Below are positions 20,530 through 43,907 of a stretch of DNA of 64,000 nucleotides, piece after piece. Below the pieces are notes generated by a model, which worked only from the letters and a program-made list of their open reading frames with translations, was not told the DNA's origin and did no database searches. Source of the DNA: Neptunicoccus cionae (GTDB lineage Bacteria > Pseudomonadota > Alphaproteobacteria > Rhodobacterales > Rhodobacteraceae); the NCBI RefSeq assembly GCF_002860325.1, contig NZ_PKOJ01000005.1, forward strand, positions 248,001-312,000. Direction: 5' to 3'. Both the position numbers and the translations under genes were made by a program. Position 1 is the stretch's first letter. Each line of letters opens with the position of its first letter.

Positions 20530-20573
20530 ACACGCCCCCATAGGCCGGAACCCCGACAGTCTGCGACAATTCT

Positions 20574-21344: not shown

Positions 21345-21383
21345 CTACCGACTCAGTTCTGCATAAGTTTGCCGCCGTGATAT

Positions 21384-22472: not shown

Positions 22473-22481
22473 ATTCACCCC

Positions 22482-23639: not shown

Positions 23640-23690
23640 GGGACATCCCTCATTTGTCTGGTGGGTCTGGGCATCAGTGGCGCGAATGGT

Positions 23691-24515: not shown

Positions 24516-24622
24516 TCCGTTCTCCTGTTTCTCGCGGCGCCGTCAGGTTTCCGCTGTAGCCTTGGCAATGTCGTCAATGTCGAGGGAGGAAACGCCTTCC
24601 CCCCAAGATGTCCAAAGACGGA

Positions 24623-25402: not shown

Positions 25403-25423
25403 TTACGTTCTCCGTGTTTAATT

Positions 25424-26185: not shown

Positions 26186-26281
26186 CCTGCTTCTCTTCTT
26201 CGGGTAATGGGGTTCTGGGAGGAAAGATTTTTACAGAAGCCCGTCAGTTGCGACCGGTCGGGCCCCTGTTTTGGTGCGGGT

Positions 26282-27529
26282 TTAAATCCGCTCGATGATG
26301 ATCGCGGGGGCCATGCCACCGGCGGCACACATTGTGATCAGCCCGTAACGACCACCTGAACGTTCCAGTTCATCCAAAGCAGTGCCGATCAGAATGGAAC
26401 CTGTCGCACCGATCGGATGGCCAAGCGCCATCGCGCCACCGTTGATGTTCACTTTGAAGCGGTCCAGTTTAAGATCGCGAATGAACTTTTCCGCAACAAC
26501 GGCAAAGGCTTCGTTGATTTCATAAACATCTATATCGTCGGTTGTCAGGCCCGCTTTTTCCAGAACCTTGCGGGCCGCTGGCACAGGTGCATTCAGCATC
26601 AATGTCGGGTCATCGCCGATGTTTGCAGTCGCCACAATGCGCGCACGGGGCTTCATGCCTGTCTTTTTCACATAGCTTTCCGACGCCAGCAAAAGCGCCG
26701 CTGCGCCGTCAACCACACCCGAGGAATTGCCCGCATGGTGGATGTGCTGCATCTTACCCTTCAGTTCGGGATACCGCGCGTAGATCATATCGCCGTAGGT
26801 GGTACCTTCGTCGTCAATCGGAAATTCCATGAACTTGTCGAATACGGTGTTGAGCGTGGAAAGGGATTCAACCGTCGTTCCGGGACGCGGAAACTCTTCC
26901 TTGTCCAACACCAGTTCGCCTGTCTCTGGGTCACGAACCGGTACAATCGAGCCGTCAAAACGCCCTTCGGCAATGGCCTTGGCCGCACGTTCCTGACTGG
27001 TCACGGCAAGCTGGTCTGCCGCGGCGCGGTCAATGCTTTCAATCGTTGCGATGGCGTCTGCACTACATCCCTGCTGTGTCTGAGGATGCTTCGCGCGCAG
27101 GCTCAGGTTGCCGGCATCCATCATGAAAGGCTTTTTCGGGTCTGCGATCTGGGCCGTGTAGCTCATCATTTCGGTGCCACCGGCAATCACGACATCTTCC
27201 ATACCAGACATGATCTGGGCGGCAGCCAGTGAAACGGTTGTGATACCGGAGCCACAGAAACGGTCCAGCGTGACACCGGACGCCTTGATGTCATAACCTG
27301 CATCAAGCGCGGCCATACGTCCAAGGTCGCCGCCCTGTTTGTCTTTCTGGGTGCTTGTTCCCCAGATGATATCGTCAACATCGGCAGTGTTCAGATTGTT
27401 GCGATCCCGCAGCGCGGCAAGCACCGTCGCCCCCAGATGTTGGGGATGCAGGTGTGCAAGCGCACCCTTGCCGACTTTTCCAACGCCGCGAGGAGTGCGG
27501 CATGCGTCAATGATATAGGCCTCTGCCAT
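26282..27529 (-). CDS. acetyl-CoA C-acyltransferase (thiolase)
   Basis: A 415-aa degradative thiolase, normal length. The nucleophilic Cys is in [11 protein letters not shown] (~92), the base His in [15 protein letters not shown] (~372), and the second Cys in [12 protein letters not shown] (~402). It cleaves 3-oxoacyl-CoA to acetyl- or propionyl-CoA. First gene of the leftward operon and directly behind the AT-rich inverted repeat at 27663-27704. Confidence 0.9.
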
Positions 27530-27787: not shown

Positions 27788-29092
27788 TCAGTTCATTATC
27801 GCAGGCAGGAACAGGGTGATCGAAGGCCAGATGGCCAGTATCCCCAACACAATGAGATCCATGAAAATAAACCACATAACCCCACGGAAAATCTGCGTTG
27901 TGGTTGCGATATTGCCGACCACGCCCTTGATGACAAAGATGTTCATCCCGATCGGCGGCGTCACCATTCCGATCTCAAGCAGTTTGGTCAGCACGATTCC
28001 GAACCACAGCAACGACCAGTCCAGATCCTGCACAATCGGCAGCACAATCGGCATCGTCAGCAACATCGCGCCAATCGGTTCAAGGAACATCCCCAGCAGG
28101 AGATAGACCAATATGATACCAAGCAGGATGATGGCCGGATTGGCTGACAGCCCGATAATGGAGTCAGACAGGAAGTCTCCGGCACCCGATAGGGTCAGGA
28201 ATCTTGTCAGCAAGGTTGCACCCACGCCAATAACGATCAGCGCGGCGGTTGTGATCATGGTTTCTTCGACCGCAAGACGGAACCGGCGCCAGGTCAGCGT
28301 CCGGCGCGCAAGTCCGACAAGACAGGACAAAAATGCACCGATTGCGCCCGCTTCGGTCGGTGTGAATGCGCCCGAGAAAAGCCCGCCGAAAATCCCGATC
28401 ATCACCACAAGAATTGGCCAGGTGTCTTTCAGCGCCGCGATACGCTCGGACCAAGGGGCCCGGACCCCGACAGGTGCCAGATCGGGGTTGATCTTGACCC
28501 TGATGAGGATGACCAGACAATAACCTATCGCGGAAATAAGCCCAGCCGTTATTCCGCCAAGGAAAAGTTGGGGCACCGATACCTGTGCGATCACGCCGTA
28601 AAGGATCAGAATGATCGAAGGCGGGATCAAGGCTCCGATGGTCCCCGCGACAGCAACCGTACCTGTCGCAAGTTCGGCATTATAGCGCGCGCGCATCATC
28701 TCGGGGACGGCGATGCGCCCCATTGCGGCGGCACAGGCGACGGATGATCCACACACAGCCGCAAAGCCGGCGGACCCGAAAACAGCTGCGATAGCCAATC
28801 CACCGGGAAGGGCCGATGTCCACACCCTTGCGGCCCTGAACATCCCTTGGGTCAATTCCGCATGATAGCAAATAAATCCGAGCAACAGGAACATGGGGAC
28901 CGAGCTAAGCACCCAGTTCGCCGAGAACTGGTAGGGCATCACCGCAAGCGCCCCCCATGCAACACGCCAGCCCAGCAGAACATAAAGACCCGCAAAGCTG
29001 ACGCCGATCAGGGAAACGCCAATCGGCACGCGCAACGCGATCAGGACAAACAGCAGCCCAAGTCCGCTCAGACCAATTCCGATATCATCCAT
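27788..29092 (-). CDS. dctM-like: TRAP transporter large permease, DctM-like
   Basis: A 434-aa polytopic membrane protein with about 12-13 hydrophobic segments. TRAP/DctM marks include PMFLLLGFICYHAELTQG (~62), FGSAGFAAVCGSSVACAAAMG (~95) and PSIILILYGV. It forms the Na+-coupled channel of the DctPQM importer. ATG 29092 overlaps the DctQ stop by 8 bp (ATGGATGA). Last gene of the operon starting at 37369. Confidence 0.92.
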   Translation of the reverse strand: MDDIGIGLSGLGLLFVLIALRVPIGVSLIGVSFAGLYVLLGWRVAWGALAVMPYQFSANWVLSSVPMFLLLGFICYHAELTQGMFRAARVWTSALPGGLAIAAVFGSAGFAAVCGSSVACAAAMGRIAVPEMMRARYNAELATGTVAVAGTIGALIPPSIILILYGVIAQVSVPQLFLGGITAGLISAIGYCLVILIRVKINPDLAPVGVRAPWSERIAALKDTWPILVVMIGIFGGLFSGAFTPTEAGAIGAFLSCLVGLARRTLTWRRFRLAVEETMITTAALIVIGVGATLLTRFLTLSGAGDFLSDSIIGLSANPAIILLGIILVYLLLGMFLEPIGAMLLTMPIVLPIVQDLDWSLLWFGIVLTKLLEIGMVTPPIGMNIFVIKGVVGNIATTTQIFRGVMWFIFMDLIVLGILAIWPSITLFLPAIMN

Positions 29093-29633
29093 TGCTAAGT
29101 TCCTCTGCGCCGAGTTCGTGATCAATTTCAGGGCCAAAAGTCGACTTTGCGCCCTTTGAGATTGCCCATGCACGCCACAACGCGGTCACGGCCATCAGGC
29201 CACAGCCTACGGGCAGTGCAAAATAGCTGGGCCATACAGGAATAGTGAGCGACCCTTGCTGGATCGCCGCGCTGATTTCCATTTTGTGGATCGCCTCCAG
29301 CCATGTGCGCACGGCAACAAAACCGAAAACAATAGCCGCCAGAAATCCGGCCATCGCCGCTAGCCCGCTTTGTACATTGCGAGGCATCAGTTCGGTAAAG
29401 ACCTCGACCGACACATGAGCATCGCGTGATTCAGCAACCGCAAGCGAGCAGAAGCCGAGTATCACCATGTAATAGTGAGACACGATGGTGATCGTGCCCC
29501 TGATTGGCGAGTTGAAAACAAATCGCAAAACCACATCAAATGTGATGTGCAGCATCATCAGCGTCACACAAATTATTCCGATCAGCCCCATCGCCAAGAC
29601 CAACGGTTCAAGAACGCGTTGAAAAAACTTCAT
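29085..29633 (-). CDS. dctQ-like: TRAP transporter small permease, DctQ-like
   Basis: A 182-aa protein with four predicted membrane helices, starting MKFFQRVLEPLVLAMG. The internal Met is chosen because the frame upstream (GTG 29669) lies inside the dctP/dctQ hairpin. It associates with DctM as the membrane helper subunit. The C-terminal tail after ~160 is soluble and acidic. Confidence 0.88.
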   Translation of the reverse strand: MKFFQRVLEPLVLAMGLIGIICVTLMMLHITFDVVLRFVFNSPIRGTITIVSHYYMVILGFCSLAVAESRDAHVSVEVFTELMPRNVQSGLAAMAGFLAAIVFGFVAVRTWLEAIHKMEISAAIQQGSLTIPVWPSYFALPVGCGLMAVTALWRAWAISKGAKSTFGPEIDHELGAEELSNG

Positions 29634-29664
29634 GTAACCCTCACGATTCCAATAAAAACGGTGC

Positions 29665-29697
29665 TGCACCGGACACGCTGGCAGCGCATCCGGTGCA
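29665..29697 (-). other. intercistronic stem-loop between dctP and dctQ
   Basis: TGCACCGGA and TCCGGTGCA (9 bp) plus an inner CGCT/AGCG stem form a strong hairpin just after the DctP stop. Such structures in binding-protein operons usually protect the upstream message and lower read-through. This would let the periplasmic receptor be made in excess over the permeases. Confidence 0.5.
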
Positions 29698-29706
29698 ACA
29701 GATTAC

Positions 29707-30864
29707 TCAATGCCCGTAGGTAGAAACATCGACCTTGGAGAGAACTTCGGTCCAGTACAGGTCAGCAAGCTGTTCGGCGGATTGAACGTCTTTCACCAGC
29801 GCCACCCATTTGGTCATCAGCTCGCGAATTTTCGCGGCGCCTTCCTCACCGTTTCCGACACCACGTTCTGCATAGATCGCTACCAGATTCTCCACATCCT
29901 TGCCGATCCATTCCACGCTTTGGCTGCGCAAGGCTGCATCGGCTTCGCGGAAGGTGATGCCCCGCTCTTTGGCTTTGGCAATGTTGTCCCGCGCCTCGTT
30001 GTAATAGGCATAGCTCATTTCAGCAGCAGCAACGGCCGAACCCTTCAGCAAAGCCGTACGGCCCGCGTCATCCAGCCCGCGCCACGTGTCCCCGTTCACA
30101 TTGGTCAGCGCGGAAACAAAGGACGATCCCGGCAGGTTTGTGGTCACGTCGGTAACAACGTCGATGAAGCTGAAATTGGTAAGCTCTGACGCGGAAGACG
30201 CGGTACAATCAATGACACCTTGGTTAAGGGCTTCGAATGTCTCGTTGATCGAAATGGATACAGGGATGGCGCCCATTGCTTCGATCCAGCGGCTCCAGAA
30301 CGCGCCGGGCGTGCGAATCCGCGTCCCCTTCAGATCCTCTTCCGTGGCAACAGGTTTGGTACACTGAAGCATATAGGGAGGTGTACCGGCACCGGCCGTA
30401 TAGACATGGTTTTGTGCTGCGAATTCGTTAACGCAATCTTTGCAGTTGAACATGACGTAGTCCATGATCGCGCCGGAAAAGGCGAAGGCCATGCGGTCTG
30501 CGTCCCCCTCAACCAGCTCGCTCAGGCTGGCCAACTCGGTTGCAAAGTTTGTCGCCGGAAACTCGGACAGGAAATAGGGTGTCAGGACTGTCGTCATATC
30601 CGCGATGCCATCGCGCACGCCGGATGTCGATTCCAAAAAGTTAAGCAGTGAAAGCGGGTAAACCTTGACTGTCACATCACCACCGGACGCCTCCCCGACT
30701 TCACTGGCATATGTCTCGATCACTTCAGTCGGCAGCGCACCGGCAGGCCAGCCAATCGCATAGCGCAGATCACGTGCTTCGGCTGCTGTCGAAACCATAC
30801 CTGCGGATGCGACAGCAAGAACCAACGCGGATGCGCTGCTTTTGAAAAATTTTGAAACCTTCAT
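29707..30864 (-). CDS. dctP-like: TRAP transporter periplasmic binding protein, DctP-like
   Basis: A 385-aa extracytoplasmic receptor with a clear signal peptide (AGMVSTAAEARD cleavage region, ~31). The TRAP-receptor core includes the central GTRIRTPGAFWSRWIEAMGA (~175), whose Arg normally binds the carboxylate of the solute. It has two nearby Cys in FNCKDCVNEF (~140), unusual and possibly a disulfide. The solute is therefore an organic acid, probably the substrate of the acyl-CoA synthetase in the same operon. Confidence 0.9.
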   Translation of the reverse strand: MKVSKFFKSSASALVLAVASAGMVSTAAEARDLRYAIGWPAGALPTEVIETYASEVGEASGGDVTVKVYPLSLLNFLESTSGVRDGIADMTTVLTPYFLSEFPATNFATELASLSELVEGDADRMAFAFSGAIMDYVMFNCKDCVNEFAAQNHVYTAGAGTPPYMLQCTKPVATEEDLKGTRIRTPGAFWSRWIEAMGAIPVSISINETFEALNQGVIDCTASSASELTNFSFIDVVTDVTTNLPGSSFVSALTNVNGDTWRGLDDAGRTALLKGSAVAAAEMSYAYYNEARDNIAKAKERGITFREADAALRSQSVEWIGKDVENLVAIYAERGVGNGEEGAAKIRELMTKWVALVKDVQSAEQLADLYWTEVLSKVDVSTYGH

Positions 30865-30995: not shown

Positions 30996-32156
30996 TCAGA
31001 GTGCTTCTACGATCGTGACGTTCGCCACCCCGCCGCCTTCGCACATTGTCTGCAATCCGTAGCGTTTTCCCCGCGCGCGCAATCCATGCACCAGCGTAGC
31101 CATGAGTTTCGTCCCCGAAGCACCCAGCGGATGCCCCAAGGCAATAGCGCCCCCATTAACGTTCATTTTTTCAGGATCGGCACCTGTGTGCTTGAGCCAG
31201 GCAAGCGGTATCGAAGCAAAGGCTTCGTTGACCTCGTAAAGGTCGATTTCATCAATCGACATACCGGCGCGGGACAGTGCCCGATCGGTGGCGAACAGTG
31301 GCTCTTCCAGCATGATCACCGGATCACCGGCAGTCACCGTCATCGACCGGATCCGCGCAAGGGGTGTCAGTCCGTGGGCTTTGACCGCTGCGGCACTGGC
31401 GACCAGAACCGCCGAAGCGCCATCACAAATCTGGCTGGCGTTGCCCGCAGTGATAACACCACCTTCCTTGAGAACCTTCACGCCGGCGAGCGCTTCCATA
31501 GAGGCATCGGTTCGGATGCCTTCATCCGTCCGGTGAATTTCACCGTTCTCCAGATCAAGCGGCACGATCTCCTGATCAAATGCTCCCTCTGCTGTAGCCT
31601 TGGCCGCACGCTGGTGGCTTAGCAGGGCGTAGGCGTCCAGATCCTCACGGCTGAAATTATGCTTGCGTGCAATTGCTTCCGCGCCGGAAAACTGACTGAA
31701 GGCAACACCGGGGTATCTGGCATCCAGTCCCGGTGATTTTGGTGAACCGGGCTCGAATTTTCGTGAAAACGCGCCAGTCGTTCCCATCGGAACCCGCGAC
31801 ATGGATTCAACACCTGCCGCAATCACAAGATCCTGCGTGCCGGACATGACAGCCTGCGCTGCAAACTGAATGGACTGCTGGGAAGACCCGCATTGGCGGT
31901 CAATTGACACCGCTGGCACGCTTTCGGGCAAGGACGAGGCCAGAACTGCATTACGACCGATGTGAAGACCCTGTTCGCCGCTTTGGCCGACACAGCCCAT
32001 AATGACATCTTCGATGGCGGATGGATCAACGCCGGTATTCTGCACTGTGGCGTCCAGCACACGCGCGGCAAGATCAACGGGATGCCACCCTGCAACCTTG
32101 CCACCTCGGCGGCCACCGGCTGTACGCAATGCGGAACAAATATAAGCTTCAGACAT
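30996..32156 (-). CDS. acetyl-CoA acetyltransferase (thiolase)
   Basis: A 386-aa thiolase. The nucleophilic Cys is in DRQCGSSQQSI (~89), His in GGAIALGHPLGASGT (~342) and the second Cys in QTMCEGGG (~373). Closest in style to the FadA6/steroid-type degradative thiolases with CGSSQQ rather than CGSG. It completes the beta-oxidation set of the 37369-27788 operon. The C-terminal TIVEAL is intact. Confidence 0.9.
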   Translation of the reverse strand: MSEAYICSALRTAGGRRGGKVAGWHPVDLAARVLDATVQNTGVDPSAIEDVIMGCVGQSGEQGLHIGRNAVLASSLPESVPAVSIDRQCGSSQQSIQFAAQAVMSGTQDLVIAAGVESMSRVPMGTTGAFSRKFEPGSPKSPGLDARYPGVAFSQFSGAEAIARKHNFSREDLDAYALLSHQRAAKATAEGAFDQEIVPLDLENGEIHRTDEGIRTDASMEALAGVKVLKEGGVITAGNASQICDGASAVLVASAAAVKAHGLTPLARIRSMTVTAGDPVIMLEEPLFATDRALSRAGMSIDEIDLYEVNEAFASIPLAWLKHTGADPEKMNVNGGAIALGHPLGASGTKLMATLVHGLRARGKRYGLQTMCEGGGVANVTIVEAL

Positions 32157-32194: not shown

Positions 32195-32986
32195 TCAGCT
32201 GCCAAAGCGGGCAGCGCGCTTTTCTTTGAATGCAGCAACGCCTTCTGCGAAATCGGGATGGTTGCCCGCGTCCCGTTGCAAAATACGTTCAAGTTGCAGG
32301 CTTTCGGTGAAACTGGAATCCGCCGCCGCCCATGAAGACTGACGGATCAGCGCCAGAGCCTGCGTAGGCCCTGCTGCCAGTTTCTGCGCGATCTTCATCG
32401 CTTCCGCCTCTAGGGCGTCATCTTCCACCAGTCGGGTGATCAGCCCCCAATCCAACGCCTTTTCCGCCGGTAGTTTCTCTGCCAGCATCATCAATTCCAT
32501 CGCCCGCACCCGTCCGACAGAACGGGTCAGAAACCAAGCAGCACCGCCATCTGGGATAAGCCCGATCCGCGCGAATGCCTCCAGAAAATAAGCCGATCGA
32601 CCACAGACGATGATGTCCCCTGCCATCGCCAGAGACGCGCCGACCCCGGCGGCCGCGCCGCGCACCGCCGTGATAATGGGCACCGGCAAGGTTCGGATGG
32701 TTTCAACCAAGGGGTTAAAAGCGTCTTCCAGCGCCAGTCCGGCATCGAGCTCCTGATCACCGGGTGCGAGATCACCGGACAAGTTGGCACCAGAGCAAAA
32801 TCCGCGCTCTCCGCCAGCCAGAATGATGCAGGAAGACGTTTTGGCTGCGGCCCGCAATTCGTCGCGCAAGGCCAATGCCATAGGCATATCCATCGAGTTC
32901 ATGGTTTTAGGATCATGCAAACGCACAGTGCTGACCCGCCCTTCGCGGGTGATTACCAGACGGTCATCAAGTGTAGAAATTGTCAT
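32195..32986 (-). CDS. crotonase family, PaaG-like isomerase
   Basis: A 263-aa crotonase. Both hydratase Glu positions are replaced (AAGVGASLAMAGD at ~105; LEAFARIGLIPDGG at ~128). The Asp in IPDGG matches the catalytic Asp of PaaG-type enoyl/oxepin isomerases. It is therefore more likely to move a double bond (for example 3-enoyl to 2-enoyl-CoA) than to add water. That would suit a 4-phospho-elimination route, where a shifted enoyl-CoA may arise; this is inference. Confidence 0.83.
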   Translation of the reverse strand: MTISTLDDRLVITREGRVSTVRLHDPKTMNSMDMPMALALRDELRAAAKTSSCIILAGGERGFCSGANLSGDLAPGDQELDAGLALEDAFNPLVETIRTLPVPIITAVRGAAAGVGASLAMAGDIIVCGRSAYFLEAFARIGLIPDGGAAWFLTRSVGRVRAMELMMLAEKLPAEKALDWGLITRLVEDDALEAEAMKIAQKLAAGPTQALALIRQSSWAAADSSFTESLQLERILQRDAGNHPDFAEGVAAFKEKRAARFGS

Positions 32987-33014: not shown

Positions 33015-34355
33015 CTACTTGGTCACTGTCATTCCGGACAGGGGCGCCGCAACGCTGCGCGGGGTCGGGTCTGGAATGTTGTCACGACGCGGGCCGAGGT
33101 AACCGAAAAGCCACGCACCCACCTTGCGCATCTGGATCTCTTCCGATCCTTCGGTAATGCGGTAGCGGCGGTGATGACGGTAGATATGCTCGAACGGTTT
33201 GTGCCGGGAATACCCGATACCACCGTGAACCTGCATGGCGCGGTCTGCGGCTTCACAACACAGACGGTTGGCCTGATAATTGCACATGCTCACCTTGTCA
33301 GAGAGTTGTTTGGCTACCTCGGGATGGGGCATGCGGTCCATCTCCCACGCCGTCTTGCGAATAAGCTGGCGCAGCATTTCTGCCTGCGTGGCCAGTTCGA
33401 CCAAGGGGAACTGGATCGCCTGATTGGCAGCCAGTTCTTTGCCAAACGGTTTGCGCGCGCGGGCATAGCGCACGGATTCCTCGATGCAATAGACCGCAGC
33501 GCCCAGCGAACTGGCTGCCTGCCGGATACGGTTTTCATGCACGAACGCCTGCGCCAGTGCCAAGCCGCCACCCTCTGGTCCGAACATCAGATCATCGGGC
33601 ACCCAGACATCATTGAAACTGATCCGCGGGTGGTCGGTGGGCATGTTGAAAGTCCAGAGATATTCTTCGATCTTCAGCCCCGGTGTCGTGGCGGGAACCA
33701 GAAACGCGGTGATCCCGTCCGCCGCGCCATCCTTTCCCGATGTGCGCGCGAAGGTCACGCAATGGGTTGCGGTGTGCATCCCCGTGGTCCACATCTTCTC
33801 GCCGTCAATCCGCCAGCCGGACACACCATCCCGTGTCTCGCGCACTGCGCGGGTTTCCATATGGGTGGCGTCAGATCCGTGCGCTTCCTCGGTCAGGCCG
33901 AATGCCATGCGTATATCGCCATCCAGCGCTCCGGAAATAAATGTCTGCTTTTGCGCCTCTGTCCCGAAATCGCGCAGCATGACAATCACCGGAAAGTTGC
34001 CAACCACGGAATGTTCCGACTGCAGGTCATTGAAAAGCCCCAGCCCTTTGGCCGCCATATGTTCGCGCAGAACAGCCATTGCCAGATTGCCCCCGTCCTG
34101 CCCTCCGAATTCAGCGGGAAGGGAAAAACGGTAAAAACCGGCCTTATCCGCACGCCTGACCGCTTCGGCCATAAGGGCTTCCCATTCGGGTCGGGGCAGC
34201 CCGCCGTTCTCGAAGTCGGTGCGTGCATATTCGCGGCGATGGTCAAAAAACCGCTGGTTATCGTTTTCAGCCTGCAACGGTGCAATTTCCGCTTCGATGA
34301 AAGCATCAAGGCGGTTCAGCATGTCGGTAAGATCAGGTGGTAAATCGAAGTTCAT
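33015..34355 (-). CDS. lvaC-like: acyl-CoA dehydrogenase, LvaC-like
   Basis: A 446-aa acyl-CoA-dehydrogenase-fold enzyme, about 50 residues longer than usual, the extra being spread over the N-terminal half. It has FGLTEEAHGSDATHMETRA (~155), MQVHGGIGYSRHKPFEH (~390) and ITEGSEEIQ with Glu at the MCAD base position (~413). Directly downstream of a kinase and a DUF6285 protein, the same order as lvaA-lvaB-lvaC in Pseudomonas putida. There LvaC converts 4-phosphoacyl-CoA to enoyl- and 3-hydroxyacyl-CoA. The role here follows from family and context. Confidence 0.82.
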   Translation of the reverse strand: MNFDLPPDLTDMLNRLDAFIEAEIAPLQAENDNQRFFDHRREYARTDFENGGLPRPEWEALMAEAVRRADKAGFYRFSLPAEFGGQDGGNLAMAVLREHMAAKGLGLFNDLQSEHSVVGNFPVIVMLRDFGTEAQKQTFISGALDGDIRMAFGLTEEAHGSDATHMETRAVRETRDGVSGWRIDGEKMWTTGMHTATHCVTFARTSGKDGAADGITAFLVPATTPGLKIEEYLWTFNMPTDHPRISFNDVWVPDDLMFGPEGGGLALAQAFVHENRIRQAASSLGAAVYCIEESVRYARARKPFGKELAANQAIQFPLVELATQAEMLRQLIRKTAWEMDRMPHPEVAKQLSDKVSMCNYQANRLCCEAADRAMQVHGGIGYSRHKPFEHIYRHHRRYRITEGSEEIQMRKVGAWLFGYLGPRRDNIPDPTPRSVAAPLSGMTVTK

Positions 34356-34371
34356 AATTGCGTGTCCCTTG

Positions 34372-34794
34372 CTACGGTTGGCGGCTGTTGAGGTTGGTCT
34401 GCAAAGGCACCCCTCGCCTGCGCTGCGCCAATGCCCGCAGGCGCGCTGCTGCGGAAAACTCCGGCTGGTCGATCTTGATCTTGTTGAGTGTGGTTTCGAT
34501 CAACAGCTCCGCCAGTGCCGGAGTCGACAGATCGGTTTCGCCACGTTCGATCTGCGCACAAAGACGTTTTGTCAGCGACTCCTGCTCACCAGTTTCACCC
34601 AGAATTTCCGACAGTATTTTTGTCTCGTCATCTTCGGACGGTTCCGCAGCAATCTGGCGCCGCACGAGGTCAATCACACCAGCCGCAACCTTTGCTTCGA
34701 ACTTCGCATGGGGAGGCAGGGCCGCAGCAGCGGTGCCGCGCAACCATGTGGCAACAGCGGCAAGAATTGCATCAGGGCTCGGTTGATCCTGCAT
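34372..34794 (-). CDS. lvaB-like: DUF6285 protein, LvaB-like kinase partner
   Basis: A 140-aa soluble, mostly helical protein with no catalytic motif. DUF6285 features are the N-terminal LAAVATWLRGT, KFEAKVAAGVIDLVRRQI (~32) and the Asp-Leu-Ser-Thr-Pro-Ala-Leu turn (~93). In the levulinate pathway LvaB binds LvaA and is needed for its kinase activity. ATG 34794 overlaps the kinase stop by one base (TGATG), implying tight co-expression. Longer upstream starts on this frame read through the kinase gene and are spurious. Confidence 0.8.
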   Translation of the reverse strand: MQDQPSPDAILAAVATWLRGTAAAALPPHAKFEAKVAAGVIDLVRRQIAAEPSEDDETKILSEILGETGEQESLTKRLCAQIERGETDLSTPALAELLIETTLNKIKIDQPEFSAAARLRALAQRRRGVPLQTNLNSRQP

Positions 34795-35804
34795 CACGGG
34801 GCCCCTTCCAATAGATGAAGCAACAAAATAGTCTCTGTTTCCGAGGCGCGGCGGGCGATTACATGACGTTCCACGCTGGTATCTGTGCCGTCGCGCACCC
34901 AAGAACCCATTTCTTCGATAATGACGCCCCAGCGCAGCGCCGAGAGGATTTCCCACCAACGAACGGTTTCCAGATCGACAGGGTCTCCGCCAGCCGCTTC
35001 GTACCCTGCAAACAAATCCTCCCGACGCCCCAAGCCGCCAACTGGATCGGCATTTCCAAAGCGCCAGCTTTCCATACACAGCCAGCCCATATCCGCCATC
35101 GGATCACCGACATGGGCCAGTTCCCAATCCAGAACGCCGCGTGTCCCATCGGGGCCAAGCATTAGATTTCCCATGCGAAAATCACCATGCACCAGCTTGG
35201 GCGCGTTTTGATCAGGGGCATGTTCGGCCAGCCAGCGCAAGGCCAGTGAAAAAACAGGCCGTGCATCCCCGCAGGCGCTGTGTCGCTCCGCCAGATCGGC
35301 CAGAACCTCTCGCGGGGACAGAACAGGGACGGGCAGACCGGTCGGGTCGGTCTGATGGATTTTGGCAAGTATTTCGCCTGCCTGACGGGCGAATATCTTT
35401 CGCGCAGGGGCGTAGGTTTCGTCGCGCAAAATGCGATGGGGCAGCGCCTCGCCTTGGATCCGCGTCATGATAAATCCGGTTCCAATCCCGTCGTTCGGGG
35501 TCAGTTCGTATTCGATCCGGGGTGCGGGAACGCCCGCGTTAACCACGCGGTTGATGACTTGGGCTTCAGCCGCCATGCCAATACCGGAGCCACCCGCCCG
35601 CACCGCGGAAGGTTCCCGCCGTAATATCAGGTGCTGGCCTTGCCCGCCGTCCATGCGAAAAGACCAGGTTTCCTGACTGGCGCCGCCCGACAACCTTCGC
35701 AAGCCCGTAATACCCTGCGCGGCAGGGTCAAGGGTGGGCACCAGCCGCGCCAATCCGTCCTCAAGGGACGTCTGGTGATGCAAGATGCCTTGTGCTGCGA
35801 TCAA
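34794..35804 (-). CDS. lvaA-like: APH-fold kinase, LvaA-like (4-hydroxyacyl-CoA kinase)
   Basis: A 336-aa kinase. It has LSGGASQETWSF (~39), LILRREPS (~60), catalytic LVHGDFRMGNLM (~212), VLDWELAHVGDPMADMGW (~233). This is the family of LvaA and the ACAD10/11 kinase domain, which phosphorylate the 4-hydroxyl of acyl-CoA. The frame opens with TTG 35804, overlapping the synthetase stop (TTGA); no ATG exists before the glycine-rich loop. It is therefore read as a coupled TTG start. The synthetase, DUF6285 and dehydrogenase neighbours complete the lva-like set. Confidence 0.84.
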   Translation of the reverse strand: MIAAQGILHHQTSLEDGLARLVPTLDPAAQGITGLRRLSGGASQETWSFRMDGGQGQHLILRREPSAVRAGGSGIGMAAEAQVINRVVNAGVPAPRIEYELTPNDGIGTGFIMTRIQGEALPHRILRDETYAPARKIFARQAGEILAKIHQTDPTGLPVPVLSPREVLADLAERHSACGDARPVFSLALRWLAEHAPDQNAPKLVHGDFRMGNLMLGPDGTRGVLDWELAHVGDPMADMGWLCMESWRFGNADPVGGLGRREDLFAGYEAAGGDPVDLETVRWWEILSALRWGVIIEEMGSWVRDGTDTSVERHVIARRASETETILLLHLLEGAP

Positions 35805-37369
35805 TTGACTTGCCGCTCACGGCCCTCCCAAAAAGGTGCGCGAAGATCCCGCTTGAGAAGTTTTCCCGATGCGTTGCGCGGCATCACATCAATGACGTCT
35901 ATTGCTTTGGGGCATTTGAAGGCAGCCAGCTTTCCGCGCATCCAGTCCAGCACCTCTGCTTCGTCAATGGTGGTATCGGGCTTTAAAGTTACAATTGCCC
36001 TGACAGCCTCGCCCCATTTCGGATCGGGTACGCCAATAACGGCTGCCTCGCGGATAGAGGGATGCGCATAAAGTGTACTTTCAACTTCTGCGGGATAAAC
36101 ATTTTCTCCGCCGGAAATAATCATGTCTTTAATGCGGTCGTGGATAAACAAGTAGCCGTCTTCATCCAGATAACCCGCGTCTCCGGACAGCAGCCATCCA
36201 TCGTCACGCAGGGTCTTTGCCGTCGCATCCGGATTGTTCCAGTATCCGATCATATTGGCAGGAGCGCGTATGGCGATTTCGCCAATTTCCCCTGTCTTGA
36301 CAGGCTGTCCTTCCGGATCGAACACGGCGATTTCACACCCCATCGCAGGCCGACCGGCACTGCGCATCCGCGTCGATCCCTCCGGCTTGTGATCTTCCGG
36401 CGGCAGGATAGCGATTGTACCCGTCGTTTCCGTCATTCCATAGCACTGGATAAACTTGCAGCCGATCACCTCAATCGCCTCCTGCAAGAGGGGCAGAGGC
36501 ATCGGTGCGGCACCATACATCACGGTCGAGATGCAGGAAAAATCCACATCCTTCGCTTTAGAGTGCTGGATGACGATTTGCAGGGCCGCAGGCACGACGA
36601 ACAGCTTCGTTACCCGCTCCTTGTGTATCGCGTCCAATGCGCCAACAGGGTCGAATTCCCGTTGGATGACGCTGGTGCAACCGTTGACGAAGGAAATTAC
36701 CCAGAAACCGATCCCGCCGATATGGGCCAGCGGCATCGCAACATATCCGATGTCATCATTATCCCAGTGATCATAGATGTGTTTGACCGGTAGGGAATCC
36801 AGCTTGGGCTGAAGCAGGTTGGCGTGGCTTATCAAAACGGCTTTCGGCACACCGGTGGTACCGGATGTGAACAGCACCACCGCCGGATCGCCGCTGGATG
36901 ACCGATCTTCAAAAGCTGCATCCGGTTGGGCGTCCCGCCATTCTTCATAAGTGGTCCAGGGTCCGTCGCTGCTTTCCATCGCGAGGATCGGAAGATCCGG
37001 CAAGGCGTTGGAAATTTCCTTGGCCGCTTGCAGAAATTCCGGCCCAAAGAACAGGATTTCCGGTGGATACTGACGTAGAATTTCAATGATTTCGGCAGGT
37101 GCAAGCCGCCAGTTCAGGGGCGCAAATTTCCCACCGAAACGGGTCACCCCGACGAATATCTCGAACACGTGGTCGCAGTTTTTACCCAGATAGGCGACCA
37201 CTTTCGCAGAGCTCGCATCCAAGGCGTTGGCGACCTGATCCACACGGCGATCGAACTCTTTAAAGGTCGTATCGCGCCCCTCGAAGCGGTTGCATATCTT
37301 GTCCGGCGTCCGCTGTGCGACGCTCCTCGATACGGCACTCATCGTGCTCATCGCTTCTGGATCAATCAT
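35801..37369 (-). CDS. AMP-dependent acyl-CoA synthetase, LvaE-like position
   Basis: A 522-aa ANL-superfamily ligase that activates a carboxylic acid to its CoA thioester. Motif A3 LFTSGTTGVPKAV (~168), A5 QCYGMTETTG (~310), A7 LLSGDAGYLDEDGY (~395), A8 RIKDMIISGGENVYP and A10 NASGKLLKRDL with catalytic Lys (~505). ATG 37369 follows GGAGGAGG. First gene of the nine-gene operon that also encodes the TRAP transporter, so the imported acid is its likely substrate. The candidate operator lies 145 bp upstream. Confidence 0.9.
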   Translation of the reverse strand: MIDPEAMSTMSAVSRSVAQRTPDKICNRFEGRDTTFKEFDRRVDQVANALDASSAKVVAYLGKNCDHVFEIFVGVTRFGGKFAPLNWRLAPAEIIEILRQYPPEILFFGPEFLQAAKEISNALPDLPILAMESSDGPWTTYEEWRDAQPDAAFEDRSSSGDPAVVLFTSGTTGVPKAVLISHANLLQPKLDSLPVKHIYDHWDNDDIGYVAMPLAHIGGIGFWVISFVNGCTSVIQREFDPVGALDAIHKERVTKLFVVPAALQIVIQHSKAKDVDFSCISTVMYGAAPMPLPLLQEAIEVIGCKFIQCYGMTETTGTIAILPPEDHKPEGSTRMRSAGRPAMGCEIAVFDPEGQPVKTGEIGEIAIRAPANMIGYWNNPDATAKTLRDDGWLLSGDAGYLDEDGYLFIHDRIKDMIISGGENVYPAEVESTLYAHPSIREAAVIGVPDPKWGEAVRAIVTLKPDTTIDEAEVLDWMRGKLAAFKCPKAIDVIDVMPRNASGKLLKRDLRAPFWEGRERQVN

Positions 37370-37767: not shown

Positions 37768-38412
37768 ATGAATTCAAAGGTAGTCGCAGCCAACGCCCCC
37801 GTCGAAGAGCGCGCATCAACAAGGGATGATCTGCTTACAGCGGCAAGTGAACTCATGTGCGAACGTGATACATTGTTAGTGCCGATCATCGATATTGCAG
37901 CGAAAGCAGGTGTGAACTCTGCTCTGGTGAAATACTATTTCGGCAACAAAAGCGGCCTGATGCGCGCGCTGCTTCACCGGGATCTGGCAGAGGCTGTTAC
38001 CCAGCTTGAAGCACTGGTTGAAATGGATATGCGCCCGACTGCCAAAATGCGCTATCACCTTTCCGGCCTGATCAATATGTACTTCAAATACCCGTATTTG
38101 CAGCGCCTGTTGACCGTTACGATGCGCAACGAAACGGAGCAGGTCAGATCTGATATGATCAAATCATACATCGAACCGATCCACCGCGCTTACAAGCGGA
38201 TGATTTCAGAGGGGGTCGCGGCAGGAGAATTCCAGCCCGTAGACTACAAATATTTCTATTTCATCGTCATTGGCGCCTGTGACCAGATCTTTTCATCTCG
38301 GGATGTGCTCAATTACATCCACAAAGTCGATAAAATCGACGACAATATACGCCGTTCCTACACAGAGCAGATGATCACGGTTATCCTCGGTGGCCTGGCC
38401 GCACGGACCTGA
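37768..38412 (+). CDS. TetR-family regulator
   Basis: A 214-aa repressor-type protein. The N-terminal HTH (~18-65) has the recognition part AAKAGVNSALVKYYFGNKSGLMRALL. The helical ligand domain has Tyr/Phe-rich stretches (YKYFYFIVIGACDQIFSS, ~165-182), in keeping with an acyl-CoA-type ligand. Divergent from the synthetase operon. It is the best candidate for controlling both operons that carry ATTAACTACT. It converges with the dehydrogenase operon behind it, with only a short GGTAG/CTACC stem (38433) between. Confidence 0.88.
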   Translation: MNSKVVAANAPVEERASTRDDLLTAASELMCERDTLLVPIIDIAAKAGVNSALVKYYFGNKSGLMRALLHRDLAEAVTQLEALVEMDMRPTAKMRYHLSGLINMYFKYPYLQRLLTVTMRNETEQVRSDMIKSYIEPIHRAYKRMISEGVAAGEFQPVDYKYFYFIVIGACDQIFSSRDVLNYIHKVDKIDDNIRRSYTEQMITVILGGLAART

Positions 38413-38469: not shown

Positions 38470-39597
38470 TCAGGAAGATGCGAGGGATTGGCCGACTGCA
38501 CGGAAATGGTATTCACTATCACCGAACAGCGCATTGATCGCCAGTATCCGCTTGTGGAAGTGTCCGATGCTGATCTCATCGGTCATTCCGACACCGCCAT
38601 GGGTTTGAATGGCGGCTTCGCCAATCTGCCGGCCCAATGTGCCGATCTGCCCTTTCAGAACCGAGACATCCAATGGGCTTGCATGTCCCGCATCCTTAAG
38701 CGCGGTCGTGTACAGCAAATTGGAACGGGCCTTCACATAGGCAATTTTCATATCTGCCAGACGGTGCGAAATCGTCTGGAACGCCGCGATCGGCGTACCG
38801 AACTGCTTTCGGGTCGAAGCATATTCGCCCGTCAGCCGGAGCAATGCGCCCATGGCACCGACCGCTTCGGCGCAAAGTGCTATGATCGCCTTTGAAATTA
38901 CCTGTTCAAGTACATCATAGCCTTCGGCCACGATCCTGCGCGCGGCAGGAATCCGGACCCCGTCGAATGTGATATGCGCAGCGTGGCGACCGTCTATCGT
39001 AACGAAAGGTTTTATACGCACACCTTTCTGATCCGGATCGACCATAAAGACCGACAAACCATCTTTGGCTGGTGCAGCGCCGCGCGCCCTTGCCGATACA
39101 ACAAGAACATCTGCCTGCGCTCCGCCAAGGACCATCCGCTTTTCACCGTTCAGGGTGAAGCCGCCGTCAGACTCCGATGCTGCCAGTGACACAAGTGCGG
39201 GGTCGGCCGTCCCCCTGCCCTCTTCATGGGCAAACGCGGCTGTCTGTTCGCCTGTCAAAATCCTGGCAAGTTGGGCCTCGGCCGCGGGACCTTCACCATG
39301 CGCCAAACACTGTCCCCCCAAGAGAATGGAAGAGACAAAGGGTTCAATCAGCAGATGCGCCCCGAATGGTTCAGCGATTGAAACAATATCCGCCATTGAC
39401 CCGCCGAAGCCGCCGGACTCTTCGGAAATGGGTAATCCGAGGATACCCATCTCCGCCAGTGACTGCCAGGTGTCGGGCGACCACGGCTGACCGGACGCCA
39501 GCAGCTTTTGCCGTGCTTCAAAATCATAGCTCCGCTCCAGAAGACGCGTAACGCTGTCCTGCAACATCTTCTGTTCGTCTGTTTGAGAAATATCCAT
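38470..39597 (-). CDS. acyl-CoA dehydrogenase subunit, PimD-like
   Basis: A 375-aa acyl-CoA-dehydrogenase-like protein with a shortened, divergent C-terminus. Where active enzymes have Y-E/A-G-T-x-E-I, it reads LFGDSEYH, so the canonical base is not evident. QTHGGVGMTDEISIGHFHKR (~340) is kept. Directly after a full-length dehydrogenase gene (13 bp gap). This matches heteromeric pairs such as PimC/PimD and the steroid-degrading FadE pairs, where both subunits form one enzyme. Confidence 0.86.
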   Translation of the reverse strand: MDISQTDEQKMLQDSVTRLLERSYDFEARQKLLASGQPWSPDTWQSLAEMGILGLPISEESGGFGGSMADIVSIAEPFGAHLLIEPFVSSILLGGQCLAHGEGPAAEAQLARILTGEQTAAFAHEEGRGTADPALVSLAASESDGGFTLNGEKRMVLGGAQADVLVVSARARGAAPAKDGLSVFMVDPDQKGVRIKPFVTIDGRHAAHITFDGVRIPAARRIVAEGYDVLEQVISKAIIALCAEAVGAMGALLRLTGEYASTRKQFGTPIAAFQTISHRLADMKIAYVKARSNLLYTTALKDAGHASPLDVSVLKGQIGTLGRQIGEAAIQTHGGVGMTDEISIGHFHKRILAINALFGDSEYHFRAVGQSLASS

Positions 39598-39610
39598 CCG
39601 CTTTGTCCTT

Positions 39611-40816
39611 TCAAGCGACCTGCAAGCTGCGTGCGATCAAGTCCCGTTGAATCTCATTGGTGCCCGCATAAATCGTCGTTGCGCGGCTGTTCAGATAAAA
39701 CGGCATAGCGATCAGATCCAATTCGCTTCCCATCGGGTCCACCCCCGACCCCACGGTCAGCGCGTCAAGCTGCAAGGACAGACCTTCAAGACCCGCAATC
39801 CGCGTCATCATCAGGGATACGCGTTGGGTCAGTTCTGTTGTCATGGTCTTGGCAACGGAGGGCAACGCAGGATCGTTGGCCATCTCGTGACCGCCCATAA
39901 TCAGCCGTTCAAAATGGGCGAGTGTTGTAACATCGGCATGCAGTGCGCCCAGATCGCGCTGGAACACAGGGTCATCAGACAACCTGCCCCCGAAAGGTGA
40001 CATCTCTTCCCGCGCCGACTCAGTGATCCTTTGCAGATAGCGCACCAGAACAGGACTATTGGACGATCCGTTACGTTCGTGTTTGAGCAGGTGTTTTGCA
40101 ACGCTCCACCCTTCGTTTTCGGCCCCGACCCGACCGGATTGCGGCACGCGAACATTGTCGAAAAACACCTCGCAAAATTCCGCATTGCCATCGAGCCCCC
40201 TGATCGGACGAATGTCCATGCCGGGAAAATCGGTTCTATCCAGCAACAGAAAGGTGATGCCCTGCTGTTTCTTGCCTTCAGCGCTGGTGCGCACCAGCAT
40301 GAACATCCGGTTCGACTTATGTGCGAAGGTTGTCCAGATCTTGCTGCCGTTGATGATGTAATCTTCACCATCGGCAACTGCACTACATTTCAGCGATGCC
40401 AGATCGGAACCGGAGTTCGGCTCCGAATACCCTTGCGTCCAGTAATCCTCGCCCGACAGGATCCGCGGCAGGTATTTCGCCTTTTGTTCCTCCGTGCCCA
40501 AATCAATCAGCAACGGCCCCACCATCTTTAACGAATTCGGCAGTAAAGGGGGTAGATCCCGTTTGCGATATTCCTCTTCAAAGATTGTCCGTTGTGCGCC
40601 GGACCAGCCCGTACCGCCATATTCTTCGGGCCAGTCAGGCGCGGCCCAGCCTTTTTCGTTCAAGATGACCTGCCACGCCACTGCTTGCTCGAACGGCGGG
40701 AATGCACTGGTCGTTTTACGCCCTGCTTCGCGGATCGCGTCGGTCGGTGCCGTATCCAGAAACGCCGCGACTTCGTCCCGGAACGCGTCCAGTTCCGCTT
40801 TGGTCTGGCTGGTCAT
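39611..40816 (-). CDS. acyl-CoA dehydrogenase subunit, PimC-like
   Basis: A 401-aa dehydrogenase. It has WTQGYSEPNSGSDLASL (~127), IWTTFAHKSNRMFMLVRT (~165) and the C-terminal YAGTNEIQRDLIARSL (~383). The opening (RDEVAAFLDT) and WPEEYGGTGWS (~78) match the large subunit of pimeloyl-CoA-type dehydrogenases. Probably forms a heteromer with the product of the next gene. The substrate could be a dicarboxyl, alicyclic or side-chain acyl-CoA. Confidence 0.87.
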   Translation of the reverse strand: MTSQTKAELDAFRDEVAAFLDTAPTDAIREAGRKTTSAFPPFEQAVAWQVILNEKGWAAPDWPEEYGGTGWSGAQRTIFEEEYRKRDLPPLLPNSLKMVGPLLIDLGTEEQKAKYLPRILSGEDYWTQGYSEPNSGSDLASLKCSAVADGEDYIINGSKIWTTFAHKSNRMFMLVRTSAEGKKQQGITFLLLDRTDFPGMDIRPIRGLDGNAEFCEVFFDNVRVPQSGRVGAENEGWSVAKHLLKHERNGSSNSPVLVRYLQRITESAREEMSPFGGRLSDDPVFQRDLGALHADVTTLAHFERLIMGGHEMANDPALPSVAKTMTTELTQRVSLMMTRIAGLEGLSLQLDALTVGSGVDPMGSELDLIAMPFYLNSRATTIYAGTNEIQRDLIARSLQVA

Positions 40817-40858
40817 TCTGCAAGTCTCCTGTGGAAGTTCATCTGAAACGTGCCGCTT

Positions 40859-41596
40859 TTACTTCTTGGTAAAGGCGGCGATCCTTTCCGCCATATCCGG
40901 CCCGGTGCCTTCGGTTTCCATCACCTCCCATTGCAACCCCGCATCCAGCGGCCGCATATCGGTCGCTTCAAGCAACTGCTTGTTCGCAGCATGGGAAAAC
41001 GGTGAATTTGCAATGATGCGGCCGACCAGACGTTCGATCTCGGCCTCGAATTCATCGGCAGGAACTGCATATTCGGCAAGTCCGATCCTTACGGCCTCGT
41101 CAGCTCCGATCATATCCGCCGTAAACATCAACCGCTTGGCTGTGGCGATACCGACCCGCCGCGGCAGCCGCTGGCTCATTCCCCATATGGGGGTCAGCGC
41201 CCATTTTGCGTGGGTGTCCCCGAAACGCGCCGTATCTGCCGCGACGATAAAATCAGCGGCCAGTGCCACTTCAAGCGCACCTGTATAGCAATGCCCGTGC
41301 ACCGCAGCGATCACCGGCTTTGGCAATTTTTCCATCAGTCGCAGGGTTTCGGAATGCCACCCTTGAGAAGGCACCTCCTCCCCTTCTGCGATATCGCCGA
41401 GGTCGTGACCGGCCGAGAAACACTTTCCAGCCCCCCGCAGCACAACGCAACGGATTGCATCATCGTCCCGCAGGTCAAGAATGTGCTGGCGCAACTCTTT
41501 AAACAACGGAACGTTAAGAGAATTCAACTTCTCCGGCCTGTTCATCGTCAGAACAGTCCAACCAACTTTATCTTCCCGAATTACCAGATCAGCCAT
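40859..41596 (-). CDS. enoyl-CoA hydratase/isomerase family protein
   Basis: A 245-aa crotonase. GALEVALAADFIVAADTARFG (~108) keeps the first Glu, but the second position reads THAKWALTPIWGMSQRL, so the second hydratase Glu is missing. The oxyanion loop GKCFSAGHDL (~60) is normal. Activity could be isomerisation, retro-Claisen cleavage or hydration by one base. ATG 41596 follows AAGAAGG; the upstream in-frame ATG (41626) is disfavoured. Confidence 0.84.
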   Translation of the reverse strand: MADLVIREDKVGWTVLTMNRPEKLNSLNVPLFKELRQHILDLRDDDAIRCVVLRGAGKCFSAGHDLGDIAEGEEVPSQGWHSETLRLMEKLPKPVIAAVHGHCYTGALEVALAADFIVAADTARFGDTHAKWALTPIWGMSQRLPRRVGIATAKRLMFTADMIGADEAVRIGLAEYAVPADEFEAEIERLVGRIIANSPFSHAANKQLLEATDMRPLDAGLQWEVMETEGTGPDMAERIAAFTKK

Positions 41597-41635
41597 GTTT
41601 ACCTTCTTTAAATCATTGCAACACAACGGAGGCGT

Positions 41636-42658
<1,023 letters not shown>

Positions 42659-42665
42659 TCAGGGC

Positions 42666-43856
42666 TTACGCGCCCTGTGCTTTCTTCCAATCCCGTTTAA
42701 CTTTTTTGGCGAGCGACCATTTGTGCACTTCGGTCGGTCCGTCATAAATTCTGAACGCCCGTATCTCGCGGAAGACCTGTTCGACGATTGTGTCGCCGGA
42801 CACGCCCTGCCCGCCCATCACCTGAACGCAGCGGTCGGCAACGCGCATCAGCGCTTCGGAAACGGCGACTTTCGTCATGGAGCTTTCGACCGTGCCCAGA
42901 ACACCGGTATCCAGTACATCCGCGCACCAATAAACCATCTGTTCGGCCTGCTTCAGGTCGATCATGTTTTCAGCCAGCATAAAGCCGACACCTTCGTGAT
43001 CCACCAGCGGCTTGCCAAAGGCCATGCGGCGGTTGGCATAATCGCTCGCGATCTCGTTCGCGCGGATCGCAGCCCCGAGCCAGCGCATGCAATGGGTCAG
43101 GCGCGCAGGCGACAGACGGACCTGAGCATAGCGGAACCCTTCACCGCTTTCGCCCAGCATCTGGCTTGCCGGAACCCGCAAATTGTCGATATTGATGACC
43201 GAATGTCCACCGATCATGGAATTGTCGATGGTGTCCAGCACCCTTTCGATCCGGATCGCGGGATCGGGCAGATCGACAAGGAACATGCAGGCCCCGTCCT
43301 CGGATTTGGCCATTACGATGCCCAGTCCTGCCCCGTCGGCCCCCGTGATAAGCGTCTTGCGCCCGTTGATGACCCAGTGGTTCCCGTCCATTTTACAGGT
43401 CGTCTGCATCATCATCGGGTCTGACCCGGCACCCCCCTCGTCCGCAGGCTCCGTCATGAAAAAGGCAGAACGCATCTTGCCCTCGACCATCGGCTTCAGG
43501 AACCGCTCTTTCATCTCGGCAGAGCCGACCTGACCCAGAAGATACATATTACCTTCGTCGGGCGCACCCACATTGCACGCGATCGGACCAAGCGGCGAAA
43601 GCCCCGAGCGTATCAGCACACATGCGGTTTCAAGATGGCTCAGGTGCGTGCCGTCGTCCAGAATATGAGGGGTCATCACCCCGGCTTTTCGGGCTGCCTC
43701 TTTCATTTCATCGCCAAGCGCCTCTGTCGGGCCGTGGCTGTTTTTGCGATCGTCCTTTTCATAGGGAACGATCTGCTCGCGCACAAAGCTTTCCACGCGG
43801 TCCGCGATTTGCAATGCCCGTTCGGACATCCGGCTGTTATCAATAGTAAACGTCAT
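42666..43856 (-). CDS. acyl-CoA dehydrogenase, ACAD10/11-like C-terminus
   Basis: A 396-aa dehydrogenase. It has FFMTEPADEGGAGSDPMM (~135), CVQVMGGQGVSGDTIVEQVFREIRAF (~345) and the end motif IYDGPTEVHKWSLAKK. The D-G-P-x-E-V-H form is characteristic of the ACAD10/ACAD11 group rather than YEGTxxI. That group works on 4-hydroxy/phospho acyl-CoA in mammals, so this enzyme is a second candidate partner for the two kinases. ATG 43856 is preferred; 43874 is a possible alternative. Confidence 0.85.
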   Translation of the reverse strand: MTFTIDNSRMSERALQIADRVESFVREQIVPYEKDDRKNSHGPTEALGDEMKEAARKAGVMTPHILDDGTHLSHLETACVLIRSGLSPLGPIACNVGAPDEGNMYLLGQVGSAEMKERFLKPMVEGKMRSAFFMTEPADEGGAGSDPMMMQTTCKMDGNHWVINGRKTLITGADGAGLGIVMAKSEDGACMFLVDLPDPAIRIERVLDTIDNSMIGGHSVINIDNLRVPASQMLGESGEGFRYAQVRLSPARLTHCMRWLGAAIRANEIASDYANRRMAFGKPLVDHEGVGFMLAENMIDLKQAEQMVYWCADVLDTGVLGTVESSMTKVAVSEALMRVADRCVQVMGGQGVSGDTIVEQVFREIRAFRIYDGPTEVHKWSLAKKVKRDWKKAQGA

Positions 43857-43907
43857 TTTTGTGATCCATTTCATGTCATCAGAGCTGTCGGTTCCGGCGC
43901 CTGTTTG

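Follow-up and report, generated by a model that had tools for sequence, protein, structure and literature searches.

The stretch of Neptunicoccus cionae DNA considered here (64,000 nucleotides of contig NZ_PKOJ01000005.1, positions 248,001 to 312,000; referred to below as the window) carries, at positions 33015 to 37369, genes for an acyl-CoA ligase, an APH-fold kinase, a DUF6285 protein and an acyl-CoA dehydrogenase (ACAD). The original prediction was that the last three are LvaA, LvaB and LvaC of the levulinate (lva) operon of Pseudomonas putida, coupled to a TRAP (tripartite ATP-independent periplasmic) importer. As predicted, the four genes are open frames forming one tight minus-strand run, with spacings of −4 (ligase/kinase), −1 (kinase/DUF6285) and 16 bases (DUF6285/ACAD), the start codon of the DUF6285 gene sharing one base with the stop codon of the kinase gene. 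The continuation into crotonase, thiolase and DctPQM, with spacings of 28 (ACAD/crotonase), 38 (crotonase/thiolase) and 131 bases (thiolase/DctP), was confirmed by Pfam. The genes of this region are as follows.

35801..37369, minus strand: AMP-forming acyl-CoA ligase, the first gene of the run (Pfam AMP-binding, E = 5e-72; NCBIfam PRK06187, 532 bits, above cut-off)
34794..35804, minus strand: APH-fold kinase, called kinase II here (Pfam APH, E = 5.4e-33; HGD, N and LDWE motifs intact)
34372..34794, minus strand: LvaB-like DUF6285 protein of 140 aa (PF19802, E = 2.3e-22, 79.9 bits against a cut-off of 28.1)
33015..34355, minus strand: Glu-type acyl-CoA dehydrogenase, called ACAD-II here (Pfam Acyl-CoA_dh_1, E = 1e-40)
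32195..32986, minus strand: crotonase-family protein of the hydratase/isomerase type (Pfam ECH_1, E = 8.5e-51; best NCBIfam models under their cut-offs)
30996..32156, minus strand: thiolase (Pfam and NCBIfam)
27788..30864, minus strand: the whole TRAP importer DctPQM, made up of the three entries that follow
29707-30864, minus strand: DctP (Pfam DctP, E = 1.8e-24)
29085-29669, minus strand: DctQ (Pfam DctQ, E = 1e-23)
about 29173 to 27788, minus strand: DctM (Pfam DctM, E = 9.7e-78)
37768..38412, plus strand: TetR-type regulator between two minus-strand runs (Pfam TetR_N, E = 2.8e-7, and TetR_C_9, E = 1.1e-40; a TetR gene is annotated in the syntenic plasmid)

The order of the flagged genes is beyond chance, as the same order recurs in two Sulfitobacter pontiacus plasmids and in another genome, G579. 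In the window's own genome, DUF6285 was matched once, at 34372-34794 only, and the profile match of this 140-aa protein bears out the family assignment that had been predicted for it.

The dehydrogenase is where the predicted trio breaks down. According to the accessible part of Rashan et al. (PMC12440821), the marks specific to ACAD10, ACAD11 and LvaC are a catalytic Asp (D753 in ACAD11) together with R626, H634 and R637, whereas R631 is present across ACADs generally. These five ACAD11 positions were read on an alignment of 65 ACADs. All 22 sequences of the 33015 kind carry F-R-Q-S-E, while the LvaC-type sequences, of the kind encoded at 42666-43874 in the same window, carry R-R-H-R-D in 29 of 29 cases. 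Thus, ACAD-II has Glu402 in place of the catalytic Asp, and F271, Q279 and S282 replace R626, H634 and R637, with the R/H/R phosphate pocket being absent. Its identity to the ACAD encoded in a Stutzerimonas lva-type operon is 28%, and a PDB search places ordinary acyl-CoA dehydrogenases on top, with ACAD11 at E = 1.7e-26. A quick tree, from which seven near-copy loci were omitted, resolved ACAD-II as a single clade (17 rows, two of them duplicating proteins already included; support 100), separate from the RRHRD clade (36 rows, support 95).

ACAD-II has the canonical marks of an acyl-CoA dehydrogenase (Glu base, common arginine and ACAD fold). It shares the base and the arginine with the short/medium-chain ACADs, which are also its top sequence and fold matches; however, it is 19-29% identical to them across the 50 listed fold matches and has strongly conserved motifs of its own, such as RFFDHRRE, WTFNMPT and FVH[EQ]NRIRQAASS. 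Judged by its residues and clade, ACAD-II is a member of a different, widespread dehydrogenase family, and not LvaC. The equation of the trio with LvaA, LvaB and LvaC therefore stands for the families of the kinase and the DUF6285 protein but fails for the dehydrogenase.

Kinase II has intact catalytic motifs, HGD, N and LDWE being kept in all 127 kinases that were selected and aligned. It shares 31% identity with the kinase encoded in the Stutzerimonas lva-type operon, and it matches the ACAD11 kinase with E = 6.6e-9 and the 25-hydroxysteroid kinase (25-HSK) with E = 1.3e-4. A quick kinase tree was built from 81 of the 127 kinases (65 of a first set plus every fourth of the 62 others); its support values are from the Shimodaira-Hasegawa-like approximate likelihood ratio test only, and its branches are long, which leaves details unsure. 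In this tree, the Stutzerimonas and Azotobacter lva-type kinases fall in an 18-row clade (support 99) and kinase II lies outside it, contrary to the expectation that it would be an LvaA orthologue. The second kinase of the window, at 19501-20541, belongs to a separate 7-row group (support 100). For both kinases the top PDB match is 3dxp.

The gene row on the Stutzerimonas plasmid runs PrpR regulator, phosphotransferase, DUF6285, histidine phosphatase, ACAD, short-chain dehydrogenase/reductase (SDR), acyl-CoA synthetase, DUF485 and symporter, and an Azotobacter plasmid has a similar row. By synteny in such lva-type operons only, LvaB would be a DUF6285 protein. By family, the window's DUF6285 protein is LvaB-like, and its direct BLAST match to the Stutzerimonas DUF6285 protein is weak (E = 0.001). 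A histidine-phosphatase-family gene is annotated beside the kinase-DUF6285 pair in lva-type loci of Thermus, Azospirillum and Stutzerimonas (L013, L014 and L072).

In many sphingomonad loci, the kinase and the DUF6285 protein are fused. Of 25 proteins of 435-460 aa, 21 were chosen as fusions, and all 21 match both the APH and the DUF6285 Pfam families (E <= 0.1); L085, with an over-long frame and a separate DUF6285 gene, was left out. One of the kinase-DUF6285 fusions, L108, was modelled with a predicted local distance difference test (pLDDT) score of 89.2.

The kinase, the helper and ACAD-II also travel together. Among 398 Pseudomonadota genomes, ACAD-II is present in 30 (E <= 1e-120) and DUF6285 in 39, with both in 29 (table 29/10/1/358; Fisher p = 1.9e-34, without correction for kinship). 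The lone exception, G359, has a 485-aa kinase next to ACAD-II with a diverged DUF6285 domain as its C-terminus; this C-terminus scores 26.7 bits with the DUF6285 profile, slightly below the cut-off of 28.1, and the kinase reaches 116.6 bits with the C-terminal portion of the 21 fusions. The kinases of the ten DUF6285 genomes without ACAD-II are all inside the LvaA clade, and an LvaC-type ACAD lies within the 20 kb retrieved in eight of these genomes (not in L046 and L051). DUF6285 was found in five of the 295 genomes of the family sample, ACAD-II being in the retrieved stretch in the window's genome and G579 only.

At the level of single loci, we considered 80 titled ACAD-II loci, the best 80 of at least 584 relatives. 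A kinase or DUF6285 gene lies immediately upstream on the same strand in 48 of the 80; the kinase is upstream or overlapping on the same strand in nine more, on the other strand in four, and not in the locus in 19, several loci ending at contig ends. The ORF (open reading frame) finder uses the first start codon, making some frames over-long, so that some loci fail strict adjacency. By record titles, the ACAD-II module is present in Alpha-, Beta- and Gammaproteobacteria.

Computation has established the order of the genes, the residues, the clade, the co-occurrence and the natural fusion, and these stand behind our reading of the flagged genes as a second hydroxyacyl-CoA kinase module, which would exist beside LvaABC and would not be LvaABC itself. 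We give this reading about an even chance. We propose that: the ligase, going by its family, would make an acyl-CoA; kinase II, with the DUF6285 helper bound to it, would phosphorylate a hydroxyl group of the acyl chain, as the example of LvaA and LvaB and the intact kinase motifs suggest; ACAD-II would take the same chain by means of Glu402 and flavin adenine dinucleotide (FAD), catalyzing either α,β-dehydrogenation or a phosphate elimination using a pocket unlike that of LvaC; and the crotonase and the thiolase would complete the degradation. In the mechanism proposed for ACAD10, the first events are loss of the C2 proton and transfer of a hydride to FAD, as given in the accessible part of the report (PMC11342911). 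By analogy, a Glu base could initiate ACAD10-like chemistry; the known phosphate pocket is missing in ACAD-II. A bolder form, which we put forward tentatively and regard as rather doubtful, is that kinase II, DUF6285 and ACAD-II constitute a second ATP-driven dehydration system acting on hydroxyacyl-CoAs, in which the Glu-type fold would have separately gained phosphate elimination, acting on a hydroxyl at a position other than C4 or on a tertiary alcohol beyond the reach of LvaC and ACAD10/11.

Neighbouring genes of the window supply an LvaC-type dehydrogenase and an ACAD11-like kinase.

38470..45455, minus strand: neighbouring run with an LvaC-type ACAD, made up of the entries that follow
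43908-45455, minus strand: ligase
42666-43874, minus strand: LvaC/ACAD11-type dehydrogenase (R-R-H-R-D; ACAD11 PDB chains, E = 5.3e-52 to 3.3e-51)
41636-42613, minus strand: nitronate-monooxygenase-like protein
40859-41626, minus strand: crotonase
39611-40816 and 38470-39597, minus strand: two further ACADs
20574..27529, minus strand: downstream acyl-CoA run, made up of the entries that follow
26282-27529, minus strand: thiolase (Pfam)
25424-26185, 24623-25402 and 20574-21344, minus strand: SDRs (same order annotated in S. pontiacus)
23691-24515, minus strand: crotonase (same order annotated in S. pontiacus)
22482-23639, minus strand: ACAD (Pfam)
21384-22478, minus strand: CoA-transferase (Pfam)
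19501..20541, minus strand: second kinase, ACAD11-kinase-like (ACAD11 chain 8v3v, E = 3.6e-64)

The ACAD at 42666-43874 has the catalytic Asp and the R/R/H/R residues all present, shares 56% identity with the ACAD encoded in the Stutzerimonas lva-type operon, and in the PDB has ACAD11 chains as its best matches after the putative acyl-CoA dehydrogenase 4hr3. Most likely, the LvaC-type 4-hydroxyacyl-CoA step of the cluster would be carried out by the 19501-20541 kinase and this ACAD. In mammalian ACAD10/ACAD11, a kinase and an ACAD likewise act in one pathway, and these two genes would be their counterparts in the window, whereas ACAD-II is without the ACAD11-specific residues and kinase II is a distant relative. 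Kinase II was rejected as the counterpart of the ACAD11 kinase on its E value, 6.6e-9 against 3.6e-64 for the 19501-20541 kinase.

Other sets of this type were seen. A third kinase-SDR-ACAD set of S. pontiacus (L016:30434-33453, minus strand) adjoins the region syntenic with the window, and its ACAD has, by eye, ACAD11-type GRIHHCMR and DGPDEVH motifs. Two more ACADs with ACAD10/11-type motifs are present in the window's genome (L200:6994-8331, plus strand, and L201:6923-8209, minus strand), with no match to kinase II or the 19501-20541 kinase within the 15 kb retrieved around them.

A Pseudosulfitobacter plasmid has many of these genes. Its LvaC-type ACAD is 87% identical to that at 42666-43874 and its kinase 42% identical to that at 19501-20541; its SDR, ACAD, crotonase and thiolase are 55%, 62%, 59% and 66% identical to those of the window, and its DctP, DctQ and DctM 46%, 44% and 67%. 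DUF6285, kinase II and ACAD-II are absent among the annotated genes of the 33 kb shown, and none of the eight plasmids matched by the window's DUF6285 is from Pseudosulfitobacter. As the TRAP and LvaC-type genes are found here without an annotated trio, the 4-hydroxy-acid route of the cluster is likely run by other genes. Hence, the predicted TRAP-coupled route for 4-hydroxy acids fits the cluster, in that putative genes for it lie nearby, but its likely actors are outside the flagged trio.

The presence of an APH-fold kinase and an LvaB-like helper inside a roseobacter acyl-CoA cluster linked to TRAP genes is nevertheless supported, and the pairing of the trio with a TRAP importer was also seen in Alloalcanivorax (L133), where DctP, DctM and DctQ (Pfam) come after kinase II, DUF6285, ACAD-II and a ligase. 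L133 is the sole locus of the best 80 with a DctP/DctM match above 40 bits to those of the window, a test that is blind to distant TRAP genes. At the Variovorax locus L079, a branched-chain ABC (ATP-binding cassette) importer, not a TRAP importer, adjoins the module.

Several observations weigh against a second module with its own dehydrogenase. The closest solved relatives of ACAD-II are ordinary short/medium-chain dehydrogenases, so ACAD-II may be a plain dehydrogenase, and in its structural model the pLDDT is below 50 at residues 155-165, 234-239, 380-384, 399-404 and 435-446, the stretch 399-404 including Glu402 and the model being weak at the active-site loop. In 10 of the 30 genomes, the ACAD-II and DUF6285 genes are on different contigs or distant from each other. 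Moreover, an RRHRD ACAD was present in all eight ACAD-II genomes tested and, at E <= 1e-100, in 30 of 30 ACAD-II genomes versus 107 of 368 others (counted by eye; 159 genomes were listed and 22 weaker than 1e-100 set aside). Among sequenced matches, all 14 at or above 343 bits are RRHRD and the next ones, at or below 273 bits, are not. The two sets also share regions: an LvaC-type ACAD, kinase II and ACAD-II lie in one region in the window, in S. pontiacus and in G579; two Variovorax loci pair both sets (L079, and L197 with L061, 14 kb apart); and an RRHRD ACAD shares the retrieved 20 kb with kinase II and ACAD-II in nine of ten loci of family f31. A profile (A2) tried as a finder of genomes without an LvaC-type enzyme was unusable, all ACAD-II genomes scoring with it.

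On these grounds, kinase II may feed the RRHRD enzyme. In that case, the 4-phosphoacyl-CoA made by kinase II and DUF6285 would go to the LvaC-type ACAD at 42666-43874, and ACAD-II, with its usual Glu base and its relatives of ordinary dehydrogenase fold, would be an ordinary dehydrogenase for a further turn of the same β-oxidation. We consider this alternative possible, though on the unlikely side. However, the 87%-identical ACAD of Pseudosulfitobacter stands beside an ACAD11-like kinase in a region where DUF6285 and ACAD-II are not annotated, and that genus is missing from the eight DUF6285-matched plasmids. Furthermore, the kinase-DUF6285 pair outside the LvaA clade tracks ACAD-II nearly one to one in the 398 genomes, and an LvaC-type ACAD above 150 bits is in the retrieved stretch of only one of the best 80 ACAD-II loci.

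It seems improbable that kinase II instead phosphorylates a tertiary or blocked hydroxyl in the style of 25-HSK, providing an ATP-driven dehydration ahead of β-oxidation. The 25-HSK of Sterolibacterium denitrificans is likewise a catabolic kinase of the APH fold, and by phosphorylating an alcohol it allows phosphate to leave; the published 25-hydroxysteroid scheme, in the accessible part of the report, combines the kinase with a separate, then unknown lyase (PMC8449060). The second-ranked fold match of the L108 fusion model is 25-HSK (9fsg, 9ft5), and kinase II is remote in sequence from the ACAD11 kinase and 25-HSK alike. However, APH folds look alike, with 3dxp and antibiotic kinases ranking alongside; in the ten proteins scanned, no NCBIfam steroid model reaches its cut-off, steroid genes not having been searched for otherwise; and the ligase points to a CoA thioester, but the substrate of 25-HSK is a free steroid, and no DUF6285 or ACAD partner is mentioned in the accessible part of that report (PMC8449060).

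Finally, orthology of the kinase, the DUF6285 protein and the ACAD to LvaA, LvaB and LvaC, with degradation of levulinate or 4-hydroxyvalerate, is very unlikely: the families of the first two match and the kinases are 31% identical, but the absence of the Asp and the R/H/R triad, the 28% identity of the dehydrogenases and the positions of kinase II and ACAD-II outside the respective clades rule out orthology of the entire trio. In P. putida, lvaA and lvaB are each needed for growth on levulinate, according to the accessible part of the report (PMC6692424). The flagged run resembles the lva operon in that a DUF6285 gene follows an APH-fold kinase gene and that the run also encodes an acyl-CoA ligase and an ACAD. 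However, its ACAD belongs to another clade and has Glu but lacks the phosphate triad, its kinase is outside the LvaA clade, it contains no SDR gene, and it has a TRAP importer where lva has a cation/acetate symporter.

The host of the window is a roseobacter, a bacterium of marine origin, and the nearest syntenic records are S. pontiacus plasmids. Genes of the RepA/ParA, RepB and RepC types are present at 49799-53287 (plus strand) on the 314-kb contig, which looks like a RepABC replicon; the cluster is therefore probably plasmid-borne, as in S. pontiacus. An IS240-like transposase gene (PF13610) lies at 59196-59906 (minus strand). Elsewhere in the window are a 2-oxoacid dehydrogenase set at 15051-18093 (minus strand), in which E2 is the catalytic domain alone (15051-15722, PF00198) and the lipoyl-type domain is on a separate 109-aa ORF (15719-16048, PF00364, E = 1.5e-8), and two EryCIII/UDPGT-like glycosyltransferase genes at 2559-3929 (minus strand) and 8870-10165 (plus strand), with a polyamine-type ABC importer, judged by eye, between them.

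In 2024 and 2025, phosphorylation of hydroxyacyl-CoA for oxygen removal was linked to enzymes of mammals, as the accessible parts of those reports state (PMC11342911, PMC12440821). A literature search, with most subscription journals outside its reach, returned no paper using the term DUF6285, and apart from the papers on lva and ACAD10/11, a search on bacterial ACAD-kinase pairs, covering titles and the starts of abstracts, found no description of the module. For the ACAD-II family, no published function came to light. What emerges is a proposed second kinase-DUF6285 module carrying a dehydrogenase family of its own. The original interpretation is partly supported, the LvaABC reading failing for the dehydrogenase and holding in part for the kinase and the helper. 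The co-occurrence of kinase II, DUF6285 and ACAD-II is almost strict, and the ACAD has an active site unlike that of LvaC; gene order alone is thus insufficient for naming a dehydrogenase LvaC. The known ACAD partner of such kinases is recognized by one active-site signature. If a second kinase-helper-dehydrogenase set does exist, this signature would miss part of this chemistry in Proteobacteria.

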